Of a DNA stretch of 64,000 nt, positions 50,139-53,528 are shown in pieces; position 1 is the stretch's first letter, and the number at the start of each line of letters is the position of its first letter. Source of the stretch: an uncultured Prevotellaceae bacterium (lineage in GTDB: Bacteria > Bacteroidota > Bacteroidia > Bacteroidales > Muribaculaceae); the NCBI GenBank assembly GCA_900318335.1, contig ONKF01000004.1:25359-89358 (forward strand), given 5' to 3'. Under the pieces are notes generated by a model, which was not told where the DNA came from, searched no databases, and saw only the letters and a program-made list of their open reading frames with translations. A program made the position numbers and the translations under genes.

Positions 50139-51602
50139 ATGGAAAGATTGAAAAAATTATATGAGCAATTTGTAGGTAGCCAGCCCACCGAAGTTGTCTT
50201 AATGGACAAGGCCGGTTCCAACCGCCAGTATTACCGCCTGCACGGTGAGCGCTCTATCGTGGGCGTCATCGGCGAGTCACGCGAGGAGAACGACGCGTTC
50301 ATCTACATGGCACGCCACTTCCGCGAGCAGGGGCTGTCGGTGCCCGAAGTTTTCGGTGTGAGCGAGGACCACATGGCCTATATCCAAGAGGACTTGGGCA
50401 AAAAGCCCGAGAACATCCTGTGGAACAAAATACGCCGCAGTTCCATCACCCATGCCTTTACCAGCGGTGAGAAGGAGTTGCTGTGCCGCACCATGCGCGA
50501 TCTGGTAGACATCCAGTTCAAGGGCGCGCAGGGATTTGATTACGACAACTGCTACCCTGCCAAGTGCTTTGACGAGCGCTCCATCAAGTGGGACCTGAAC
50601 TACTTCAAGTACTGCTTCCTTAAGGCCACGGGAGTGGTGTTTAACGAGGCAAAGCTGGAAAATGACTTTGAGCGCTTGACCCAGGACCTGCTGGCTGTGC
50701 CCAGCGAGACGTTCATGTACCGTGACTTCCAGTCGCGCAACGTGATGCTCGTGGGTGACGCCGACCACCCTGCCGACTGCAAACTGGCGTTTATCGATTT
50801 CCAGGGCGGTCGCCGCGGCCCGTTCTACTATGATGTCGCTTCATTTGTTTGGCAAGCCCGTGCCAAGTACCCCGAGGAGTTAAAGAAAGAACTCGTCGAG
50901 GCCTATTTGGGCAAACTCAAGGAGTATCTGCCCGACATAGATGAGAAGGAGTTCTACAGCAACCTGCGCCTGTTTGTGCTCTTCCGCACCCTGCAAGTGC
51001 TTGGAGCCTATGGTTTCCGCGGTTACTTCGAGAAGAAACCCGACTTCATGAAGAACAGCATTGTCCCCGCCATCGCCAACCTGCGCAAACTGGTCATCAA
51101 CAAACCGTTCACCCGCTATCCTTACTTGAGCCTTGTCATCGACGAGCTCGTTAATCTCAAGGACTTTGTCAGCGAGGACAAGGGACTGACCGTCAGGGTG
51201 ATGAGTTTCGCTTACAAGAAGGGCATACCTCACGACCCGTCAGGTAACGGCGGCGGCTTTGTGTTTGACTGCCGCGCCCTGAACAACCCTGGCAAGTATG
51301 ACAAGTACAAAGCCTTCACCGGACTGGATGCCAATGTCATCGAGTTCCTCCAGAAGGAGAGCACCATCGACAAGTGGCTGGAGCACGTGTATGCCCTGGT
51401 TGACGAGTCGGTAGCCCGCTACGTGAAGCGCAATTTCACCGACCTGATGGTTTGCTTCGGGTGTACTGGCGGCCAGCACCGCTCGGTATATGCCGCTGAG
51501 CACCTTGCCCAACACATTCACGAGAAATTCAACGTGCGCGTGGAACTCTCTCACCGTGAGCAGCCTGACCACGAGCGCACCCTTAATCCTATTGACCGAT
51601 AA
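50139..51602 (+). CDS. AmgK-like amino-sugar kinase fused to a RapZ C-terminal domain
   Basis: 487 residues. Residues about 1-330 are an aminoglycoside-phosphotransferase-fold kinase resembling AmgK: AGSNRQYYRL (Gly loop), IQEDLG, the catalytic MYRDFQSRNVML (Asp196) and the metal-binding AFIDFQGGRRGPFYYDVASF. AmgK makes MurNAc-1-P (or GlcNAc-1-P) in peptidoglycan recycling. Residues about 345-487 are a RapZ C-terminal domain: VMSFAYKKGIPHD, FDCRALNNPG, TGLDANVIEFL and CFGCTGGQHRSVYAAEHLA. In E. coli RapZ this domain binds glucosamine-6-phosphate and guides RNase E to an sRNA; the N-terminal RapZ ATPase is absent here. The stop overlaps the next ATG by one base (TAATG), coupling it to a MurU-like gene. 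Confidence 0.85.
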   Translation: MERLKKLYEQFVGSQPTEVVLMDKAGSNRQYYRLHGERSIVGVIGESREENDAFIYMARHFREQGLSVPEVFGVSEDHMAYIQEDLGKKPENILWNKIRRSSITHAFTSGEKELLCRTMRDLVDIQFKGAQGFDYDNCYPAKCFDERSIKWDLNYFKYCFLKATGVVFNEAKLENDFERLTQDLLAVPSETFMYRDFQSRNVMLVGDADHPADCKLAFIDFQGGRRGPFYYDVASFVWQARAKYPEELKKELVEAYLGKLKEYLPDIDEKEFYSNLRLFVLFRTLQVLGAYGFRGYFEKKPDFMKNSIVPAIANLRKLVINKPFTRYPYLSLVIDELVNLKDFVSEDKGLTVRVMSFAYKKGIPHDPSGNGGGFVFDCRALNNPGKYDKYKAFTGLDANVIEFLQKESTIDKWLEHVYALVDESVARYVKRNFTDLMVCFGCTGGQHRSVYAAEHLAQHIHEKFNVRVELSHREQPDHERTLNPIDR

Positions 51603-52366
51603 TGAAAGCACTGATTTTTGCCGCGGGATTGGGAACACGCCTGCGCCCGCTGACCGACGACCGTCCCAAGGCAATGGTCGAGATAGCAGGCAAGCCCATG
51701 CTGCAACACGTCATCGAGCGTGTGGCGGCAGCGGGATTTGACGACATCACCATCAATATCCACCACTATGGGCAGATGATCATCGACTTCCTGGAGCAGA
51801 ACAACAACTTCGGGGTGAATATTCACATCAGCGATGAGCGCGGACTGCTGCTCGACACGGGTGGCGGTATCCTTAAGGCCCGCCAGTGGCTGGATGGCGA
51901 TGAGCCTTTCCTCGTACACAACACCGATATCATCTCCACACTCGACCTGAAGGCCTTCTACAACTATCATGTGGAGCACGATGCCTTGGCGACAATCCTC
52001 GTCAAGGAGCGCCGGACACAGCGCTACCTGCTGCTCGACGAGAATGACCGGATGTGTGGATGGACCAACAAGGCAACGGGTGAACTGAAGCCCGACCCTG
52101 AGAAATTACGGGACCTGGAGTTGAAGGAAATGGCATTCGGCGGGTTGCATATCATCTCACCGCGCATCTTCCCTCACCTGGAAAGTTACCGCCGCAAGGA
52201 AGGCGAGAAGTTCTCAATCATACCTTTCTACGTGAGCGCCTGCAAGCACCACTTGATCCACGGCTATCACCCTGACAACGACTACCTGTGGCTCGACATC
52301 GGCAAACCCGAGACCCTCGCCCAGGCTCAGGAGATATTACAATCTAACAACTCAGCCTCACGCTAA
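51602..52366 (+). CDS. murU: MurU-like sugar-1-phosphate nucleotidyltransferase
   Basis: 254 residues. The nucleotidyltransferase signature AAGLGTRLRPLTDDRPKAMVEIAGKPM (here as GLGTRLRPLT and RPKAMVEI) is at the N-terminus, with LLDTGGGILKA, HNTDIISTLD and FGGLHIISPRIF further on. Direct coupling to an AmgK-like kinase makes MurU, MurNAc-1-P uridylyltransferase, the best reading: the pair would turn salvaged MurNAc into UDP-MurNAc, bypassing the fosfomycin-sensitive step. A mannose-1-P or glucose-1-P transferase role cannot be excluded by sequence alone. Confidence 0.75.
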   Translation: MKALIFAAGLGTRLRPLTDDRPKAMVEIAGKPMLQHVIERVAAAGFDDITINIHHYGQMIIDFLEQNNNFGVNIHISDERGLLLDTGGGILKARQWLDGDEPFLVHNTDIISTLDLKAFYNYHVEHDALATILVKERRTQRYLLLDENDRMCGWTNKATGELKPDPEKLRDLELKEMAFGGLHIISPRIFPHLESYRRKEGEKFSIIPFYVSACKHHLIHGYHPDNDYLWLDIGKPETLAQAQEILQSNNSASR

Positions 52367-52462: not shown

Positions 52463-52915
52463 ATGAAAAAGACTATCATCATTGCAGCCATCATGCTGCT
52501 TGTGGCTGGCACGGCATCGCTTGATGCACGTACCAAGAAGAAAACTACCAGCAAGAAGGCCAGCACTACTCAGGTTATCTATACTGGCGACATCGCCAAC
52601 AAGGTCATCGGCTACAACGGCACCACCCCCTTGAACATCAAGGTCAAGAATGGTGTTATTGAGGACATTGAGGTACTCCCCAACCAGGAGTCACCCAGTT
52701 ACCTCAAGCGCGCCAAGGACAAGGTGCTGCCGCAATACATCGGCAAGACCGTCGCCGAGGCCAAGAGCCTCAAGCCCGACATCGCCACCGGTGCCACCTA
52801 CACCAGCCAAGCCCTCATCAAGAATATCCAGATGGGCCTTGACCAGGCAAAGTCATCATCCGCCACCAATAAGAAAGCGGCCACCAAAAAGAAAACCACT
52901 AAAAAACGCCGCTAA
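52463..52915 (+). CDS. Small exported FMN-binding-domain protein
   Basis: 150 residues. A signal peptide (about 1-22, ending ASLDA) is followed by a Lys/Thr-rich linker, then an FMN_bind-type domain: YTGDIANKVIGYNGTTPLNIKVKNGVIEDIEVL and the flavinylation motif DIATGATYTS (Thr112). In NqrC/RnfG-type domains the Thr of S/T-GAT receives covalent FMN from the exported transferase ApbE. The C-terminal 25 residues are Lys-rich and probably disordered. It would serve as a small extracytoplasmic electron carrier. No ApbE or reductase gene is adjacent. Confidence 0.75.
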   Translation: MKKTIIIAAIMLLVAGTASLDARTKKKTTSKKASTTQVIYTGDIANKVIGYNGTTPLNIKVKNGVIEDIEVLPNQESPSYLKRAKDKVLPQYIGKTVAEAKSLKPDIATGATYTSQALIKNIQMGLDQAKSSSATNKKAATKKKTTKKRR

Positions 52916-53003: not shown

Positions 53004-53528
53004 ATGAAGAGTTATATCGAGATTAAAGTGCCTATCAGGTTTGAGGATTCCTGGTTCAGGCAGTTGAGGGACTTACTTGACGGTGTCGATATCCGCTGGC
53101 AACGAGGATATTACCACATCACGATGGCGTTTCTGGACTTCGCACCCGACAAGGTGAACATGATACCGGGATTGAACGGGATACTTGACGACGCTGTGGC
53201 TCCTGTCATCACATTTGACATGCTCGACGCTTTCGCATCGGGTTATCACAGGCAGGTCATTCACCTCACGACCACCGAGGCTCCCGAGGAATTCTTGGAC
53301 ATGGTGAAACAAATCAGGCAGTATTTCCTGGCTAAAGGCTGCGAGATTCAGTCCGATTTCAAGTTGCATGTCACCCTGGGCAGGGTTCAGGACCCCAGGA
53401 TGAACGTACGCAAACTCAAGGATATCATCAGCGAGGTGGATCTGCCCACATTCACGATGGAATTGACCGATGTAGAGTATCGCGTCTTCCGTGGCAAGAC
53501 CCTTGGCCTGTGGAAACTCTCCAACTGA
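53004..53528 (+). CDS. 2H phosphoesterase (LigT/2'-5' RNA ligase-like)
   Basis: 174 residues, cytoplasmic. The two HxT motifs of the 2H superfamily are present: HITMAFL (His38) and HVTLGRV (His122), about 84 residues apart as expected. The family includes RNA 2',3'-cyclic phosphodiesterases and tRNA ligase-type enzymes. The exact substrate is unknown. It ends at a perfect 20-bp bidirectional terminator. Confidence 0.8.
   Translation: MKSYIEIKVPIRFEDSWFRQLRDLLDGVDIRWQRGYYHITMAFLDFAPDKVNMIPGLNGILDDAVAPVITFDMLDAFASGYHRQVIHLTTTEAPEEFLDMVKQIRQYFLAKGCEIQSDFKLHVTLGRVQDPRMNVRKLKDIISEVDLPTFTMELTDVEYRVFRGKTLGLWKLSN

Follow-up and report, generated by a model that had tools for sequence, protein, structure and literature searches.

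In a 64,000-nucleotide window of contig ONKF01000004.1 from an uncultured Prevotellaceae bacterium, an AmgK-like sugar kinase is fused to the C-terminal domain of RapZ (RapZ-C) and followed directly by a MurU-like gene. On balance, we lean toward the view that RapZ-C is the phosphatase for N-acetylmuramic acid (MurNAc)-6-phosphate (MurNAc-6P) in the salvage of uridine diphosphate (UDP)-MurNAc, i.e., a non-homologous stand-in for MupP of Pseudomonas that is fused to the next enzyme of the pathway. With considerably greater confidence, based on homology and genomic context, we assign the synthesis of UDP-MurNAc to the kinase together with MurU. Starting from muramic acid that is recycled or scavenged, the operon would yield UDP-MurNAc: MurNAc-6P would be formed by AnmK (from anhydroMurNAc) or MurK (from MurNAc), RapZ-C would remove the 6-phosphate using C442 in a C-x5-R-S loop as nucleophile, the fused kinase would phosphorylate C1 of the freed MurNAc, and MurU would then add uridine monophosphate. 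The fusion would be a two-step enzyme, 6-phosphatase and 1-kinase, that replaces the separate MupP and AmgK of Pseudomonas. We infer the phosphatase activity and its substrate as well as the substrates of the kinase and of MurU.

We had formed the hypothesis of RapZ-C as a replacement for MupP before searching for the genes of the pathway. MurNAc-6P produced by AnmK has two fates, cleavage by MurQ or dephosphorylation (as described in part of PMC5371407), so that genomes with AnmK and without MurQ need a phosphatase as outlet. Among 119 genomes of the order Bacteroidales, RapZ-C was found in 65 of the 66 that encode AnmK and lack MurQ (Fisher p 3e-7 against the rest); the corresponding counts were 8/11 for genomes with both genes, 9/17 for those with MurQ and no AnmK, and 17/25 for those with neither. 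A sample of 198 genomes across the phylum, where the genome of the window is the sole member of its order and MurQ was scored as present below 1e-30, had RapZ-C in all 7 genomes with AnmK and without MurQ versus 9/128 with both (Fisher p 8e-8). Within this phylum sample, the association appears only for AnmK with MurQ absent; AnmK by itself showed none (16/24 genomes with RapZ-C versus 119/174 others).

Kinases without RapZ-C follow the same distribution from the other side. RapZ-C is missing from 20 genomes of the order. Five of these encode only the kinase, and searches for AnmK, MurQ, and MurK were negative in all five as well as in G049, a kinase-only genome outside the order; a MurK homologue was also not found in the 4 genomes of family f33 that were examined. 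Conversely, 17 genomes of the order have RapZ-C and neither AnmK nor MurQ, and all but one of these (16) carry a full-length MurK homologue (36–58% identity; one with an internal stop). At least one of AnmK, MurK, and MurQ thereby occurs in 98/99 RapZ-C genomes of the order versus 0/5 kinase-only ones (p 6.5e-8), or in 93/94 when 5 genomes with short RapZ-C frames are set aside, with kinase presence in each of the 99 resting on frame lengths. The 4 genomes of the order that have AnmK and lack RapZ-C gave no kinase match at E<=1e-10. The kinase model matches 67/198 genomes of the phylum sample, 25 of them strongly (all 24 with RapZ-C, plus G049) and 42 weakly, the latter all in family f33 without AnmK, MurQ, or RapZ-C. 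Of the 6 kinase-only genomes, 3 (G334, G243, and G049) have MurU immediately downstream of the bare kinase, and no MurU was found in the short stretches around that of G026, G311, and G313. On a kinase tree that left out same-genus copies (L003–L012) and 5 short rows with RapZ-C only, the kinase-only state amounts to 4 changes by parsimony, of which at least 2 are forced by well-supported branches and whose direction (gain or loss) is not shown. Independent kinase-only events are few.

The original prediction had described the first gene as encoding an AmgK-like kinase with an entire RapZ-C attached but no RapZ ATPase, and its neighbor as MurU-like with an overlap of one base. Both descriptions were borne out by open reading frames (ORFs), motifs, and domain searches (Table 1). 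The fusion protein contains MYRDFQSRN, IDFQGG, TGLDANVIEFL, and CFGCTGGQHRSVY, and the MurU-like ORF begins on the final base of the fusion ORF. Pfam found neither the RapZ ATPase domain nor a domain of the haloacid dehalogenase (HAD) type in the fusion, and it assigned the second gene to NTP_transferase (1.1e-27). The best NCBIfam models were RapZ (matched in its C-terminal part), AmgK (5.8e-11), and MurU, all under their curated cut-offs: the fusion scores 42 bits on NF045759 (cut-off 550) and 37 bits on NF045698 (cut-off 500) for AmgK, and 109 bits on NF003828 (cut-off 244) for RapZ. By these cut-offs, the fused kinase would rank as an AmgK-like relative and not as an equivalog. An AmgK protein of S. 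meliloti also stays under both AmgK cut-offs (118 and 208 bits), and the other hallmarks of AmgK, i.e., the APH fold, the catalytic and metal-binding aspartates, and a gene adjoining murU, are all found in the fusion. The architecture of RapZ proper, an N-terminal P-loop ATPase followed by the C-terminal domain, is represented by the C-terminal domain alone. For the second gene, the two top models are both MurU, NF045761 (cut-off 250) and NF045697 (125 bits; cut-off 370), on which MurU of S. meliloti scores 137 and 233 bits, respectively.

A C-x5-R-[ST] loop is the signature of cysteine-based phosphatases of the protein tyrosine phosphatase type, and the loop of RapZ-C satisfies it between a strand and a helix. 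Public genomes hold at least 587 stretches that encode a relative, and the best 80 of these formed our locus set, next to a second set of 40 wider loci. CTGGxHRS is present in all 80, which were found without the loop as search pattern, and in 38/40 wider loci, i.e., in every locus that aligns there (L058 and L072 do not). A further set of 51 sequences was chosen with the loop as pattern, so that its invariance within that set is circular; D366, D377, R379, and N383 are invariant in the same set. Among the phosphate-pocket residues of RapZ (H190, T248, G249, H252, and R253) together with C247, only H190 is changed, to glycine. Its equivalent is His in 6/8 and Tyr in 2/8 classic RapZ proteins, and the smaller residue might give space for the lactyl group of MurNAc. 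The GNGGG insert precedes the FVFD strand and is a gap in the 8 classic RapZ and 3 plasmid-borne stand-alone RapZ-C sequences compared. The outcome for the sugar-phosphate pocket, on which the original prediction depended, is therefore mixed, with an intact phosphate loop and a missing H190. Since the genomic distribution follows enzymes of MurNAc-6P, this compound would be the ligand or, more likely, the substrate of RapZ-C.

Structure prediction used an alignment of the window protein and 49 of the 80 relative loci, from which L111 (unread base) and L140 (stop codon) were dropped. The best fold matches of the whole-protein AlphaFold2 model are phosphotransferases (e.g., 8agy and 3csv), and its strand 435–442 ends at C442 while a helix starts at R448, with the loop lying between. 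Modeled alone, RapZ-C has a predicted local distance difference test (pLDDT) score of 92.8 and superimposes on the C-terminal domain (CTD) of E. coli RapZ (5o5s) with a template modeling (TM) score of 0.87 by target length, 2.1 Å, and 35% identity. Fold and phosphate loop are shared with the E. coli protein, whereas the fusion lacks the RapZ ATPase, has glycine for H190, carries the GNGGG insert, has lost the basic tail, and is attached to a kinase. Passages of PMC9841335 report that the E. coli loop holds sulfate or malonate, that C247A and C247S variants are inactive, and that the authors suspected a catalytic thiol, with density after GlcN6P (glucosamine-6-phosphate) that looked "chemically transformed". 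In part of PMC7199280, Khan and Görke likened the E. coli pocket to a tyrosine-phosphatase loop and suggested that RapZ could hydrolyze GlcN6P; the idea of a phosphatase loop in RapZ is thus already in print and not new here.

Several points weigh against a MurNAc-6P phosphatase. The essential pocket residue H190 of E. coli is replaced in the fusions, and C247 is also required for control of GlmZ in E. coli, which is why its conservation is no proof of catalysis. No tyrosine-phosphatase fold was found: the matches of the RapZ-C model below E 0.001 are RapZ chains only, no tyrosine phosphatase is among the best 50 of 310, and the likeness of the modeled domain to these enzymes is confined to the loop. 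The Fisher tests ignore shared descent. The MurK search was added after the exceptions were known and covered 34 genomes, and MurK homologues may include kinases of N-acetylglucosamine (GlcNAc). Genome G312 has AnmK without MurQ, RapZ-C, or the kinase. Conversely, G040 and 6 genomes of the phylum sample (G059, G071, G156, G164, G180, and G228) have RapZ-C but neither AnmK nor MurQ nor any convincing MurK; weak MurK matches in 5 phylum genomes were not used as evidence. AnmK is missing from the genome of the window itself, which encodes MurQ and MurK; because MurQ is present, MurNAc-6P has another outlet there. Finally, HAD phosphatases of the Gph type, the only model through which MupP was sought, occur in 41/65 genomes of the order that have AnmK and RapZ-C and lack MurQ, in 7/7 phylum genomes with AnmK and without MurQ, and also in 4/5 kinase-only genomes.

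In the main rival explanation, RapZ-C would be a sensor: binding of MurNAc-6P or GlcN6P, with no turnover of either, would switch the kinase on or off, and MurNAc would come from a separate phosphatase. The Gph-type candidates could supply that phosphatase, fusion to an enzyme suits allostery, the same co-occurrence would be expected with MurNAc-6P as the ligand, and the E. coli RapZ-CTD binds GlcN6P according to part of PMC7073468. We nevertheless consider a sensor unlikely, though a serious contender, because H190 is glycine in nearly all loci, RapZ-C is encoded on its own in some of them, and the candidate partner is inconstant: no Gph-type HAD was found (E<=1e-10) in 24/65 of the genomes in question, with a model that was positive in 14/14 controls. 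MupP is itself a HAD protein with 29% identity to E. coli Gph (PMC5371407, in part); a Gph-type MupP is no constant companion of RapZ-C, other HAD families being outside the search, and RapZ-C may act like MupP but is not MupP. Separate RapZ-C genes that follow a kinase gene (in L037, L039, and L040) are compatible with RapZ-C as an enzyme.

GlcN6P is made generally in wall building, and this speaks against RapZ-C being a phosphatase for a different sugar phosphate (GlcN6P or GlcNAc-6P) that supplies GlcNAc to the kinase or limits the amino-sugar pool. So do the pocket, which is unlike that of E. coli, and the way in which kinase-only copies follow the absence of MurNAc-6P enzymes. We rate such a role as improbable, even though E. 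coli RapZ binds GlcN6P with the hydrolysis suggested in PMC7199280 (in part), the names of the AmgK models cover GlcNAc as well as MurNAc, and the 6 phylum genomes listed above have RapZ-C with no clear MurNAc-6P enzyme. Binding of RNA as in enterobacteria, which would link the enzyme to post-transcriptional control, would agree with homology to the GlmZ-binding RapZ-CTD (PMC9841335, in part) and with 2 RNA contacts of E. coli, K170 (K or R in 13/14) and R184 (14/14), in our comparison of 8 classic RapZ and 14 Bacteroidota sequences. The position of R238 is aromatic in 14/14, K270 and the basic K281–K283 tail are not kept, and the RNA-binding part is said in a passage of PMC7073468 to be restricted to Enterobacteriaceae, so that we disfavor this possibility strongly. 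Marginally less weight still falls on a domain that merely dimerizes or steadies the kinase, the least probable of all: the RapZ-CTD forms dimers via strand 179–182 (PMC5737377, in part) and D377, which matches D182, is invariant, yet kinases without the domain and separate RapZ-C genes both exist, and a scaffold needs no invariant anion loop. Regulation of the kinase by the GlcN6P pool or through RNA, as the original prediction had suggested, finds no support in the form proposed, given the glycine at H190, the loss of R238 and the basic tail, and a distribution that follows MurNAc-6P enzymes.

Compared to known systems, the arrangement most resembles MupP–AmgK–MurU recycling in Pseudomonas (PMC5371407, in part), with an AmgK-like kinase adjoining MurU and a MurNAc-6P phosphatase being needed in both; the Pseudomonas-like combination of AnmK without MurQ is found in 66/119 genomes of the order sample. 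In Pseudomonas, MupP stands alone as a HAD phosphatase, whereas the candidate of Bacteroidales is RapZ-C fused to the kinase. Tannerella forsythia, with MurT–MurK–MurQ and with AmgK/MurU named in PMC7670621, provides a second parallel: the genome of the window carries, outside the window, a MurNAc catabolic cluster of MurQ, a MurK-like kinase, NamZ, and an AmpG-type transporter (L162:7520-13111), and this kinase matches T. forsythia MurK (8ow9, 8e-94) and K1058 (8ow7, 2e-62), both MurNAc kinases. On a plasmid of S. meliloti (L177:1832-4084), AmgK is fused to TsaE and not to RapZ-C, MurU follows, and the annotation names TsaE only. RapZ is unmentioned in PMC7670621, PMC5790795, and PMC10465942. 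For a route from MurNAc-6P to UDP-MurNAc in T. forsythia, part of PMC13046382 refers to Hottmann et al. 2021, where an earlier proposal for the MurNAc-6P phosphatase of this organism may exist. In the literature that we searched, with most subscription journals outside it, no title or abstract dealt with this fusion, no paper combined RapZ with MurNAc-6-phosphate (in that spelling), and the 2 that combined RapZ with "Bacteroid" concern other matters, judging from title and abstract. What is new is the likely role of RapZ-C in MurNAc-6P handling.

The fusion arrangement is ordinary for Bacteroidales, with RapZ-C in 99/119 genomes of the order sample compared to 24/198 genomes of the phylum sample. 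Nor does it look like a chance event: a homologue was found in all 41 genomes of another set, including that of the window; in G026 the match ends short of RapZ-C, and in G002 and G033 it is truncated by contig ends. Of the RapZ-C frames in the 24 phylum genomes, 20 are as long as the fusion (478–524 aa) and the other 4 measure 134–149 aa. With tblastn, MurU was located no more than 1.3 kb downstream, on the same strand, in 76/80 relative loci and in 28/40 wider loci (absent in 11, contig end in 1). In genome G220, the RapZ-C gene (L038) and an AmgK-like kinase (L165) are on different contigs, and MurU was found beside neither. Stand-alone RapZ-C genes of 127–180 aa also occur on actinobacterial plasmids, from Planobispora and Streptomyces (L174, L175, and L176), are annotated as "RNase adapter RapZ", and keep a C-x-G-G-x-H-R loop followed by Ser or Ala. 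The same name, which hides the kinase, is given to the fusion in the two annotated records among H41–H43 (Bacteroides finegoldii, Parabacteroides distasonis, and Phocaeicola massiliensis). Within the window, MurU is followed by genes for an FMN-binding-domain protein (52463-52915) and a LigT-like 2',3'-cyclic phosphodiesterase (53004-53528).

Table 1. Coordinates of the fusion gene, its conserved elements, and the MurU-like gene in the window.
Feature	Position	Strand	Evidence
Fusion of AmgK-like kinase and RapZ-C, 487 aa, stop codon included	50139..51602	+	Pfam, NCBIfam; AlphaFold2 mean pLDDT 90.4
APH-type kinase domain, residues 27-257	50217..50909	+	Pfam APH 8.7e-12; kinase lobe to ~residue 340 by model
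Catalytic loop MYRDFQSRN, residues 193-201	50715..50741	+	R195, D196, F197, R200, N201 invariant in 23 fused proteins
Metal-binding IDFQGG, residues 219-224	50793..50810	+	I219, D220, Q222, G223, G224 invariant
RapZ C-terminal domain, residues 350-474	51186..51560	+	Pfam PF22740 2.2e-34; model match to 5o5s
GNGGG insert, residues 369-373	51243..51257	+	G371-G373 invariant in 51 sequences
G385, position of E. coli pocket residue H190	51291..51293	+	Gly in 117/118 loci
Phosphatase-type loop C442-T-G-G-Q-H-R448-S449	51462..51485	+	CTGGxHRS in 118/118 loci aligned there
H472 (E. coli H276), nearly invariant	51552..51554	+	117/118 loci, 8/8 classic RapZ
MurU-like nucleotidyltransferase, 254 aa, one-base overlap with fusion stop	51602..52366	+	NF045761 5e-41, 141 bits

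A broader proposal, which we put forward more tentatively, is that RapZ-C is fundamentally a phosphatase of amino-sugar 6-phosphates that depends on a cysteine. In Bacteroidota it would act as the MurNAc-6P phosphatase of UDP-MurNAc salvage, joined to the kinase that consumes its product, and the GlcN6P sensing and RNA binding of RapZ in E. coli would be derived from this enzyme. If RapZ-C indeed dephosphorylates MurNAc-6P, this would name the enzyme for a step of cell wall recycling in dominant gut bacteria and correct the misleading database name "RNase adapter RapZ" for the fusions. It would also offer a simple enzyme test for what the RapZ C-terminal domain does to sugar phosphates.

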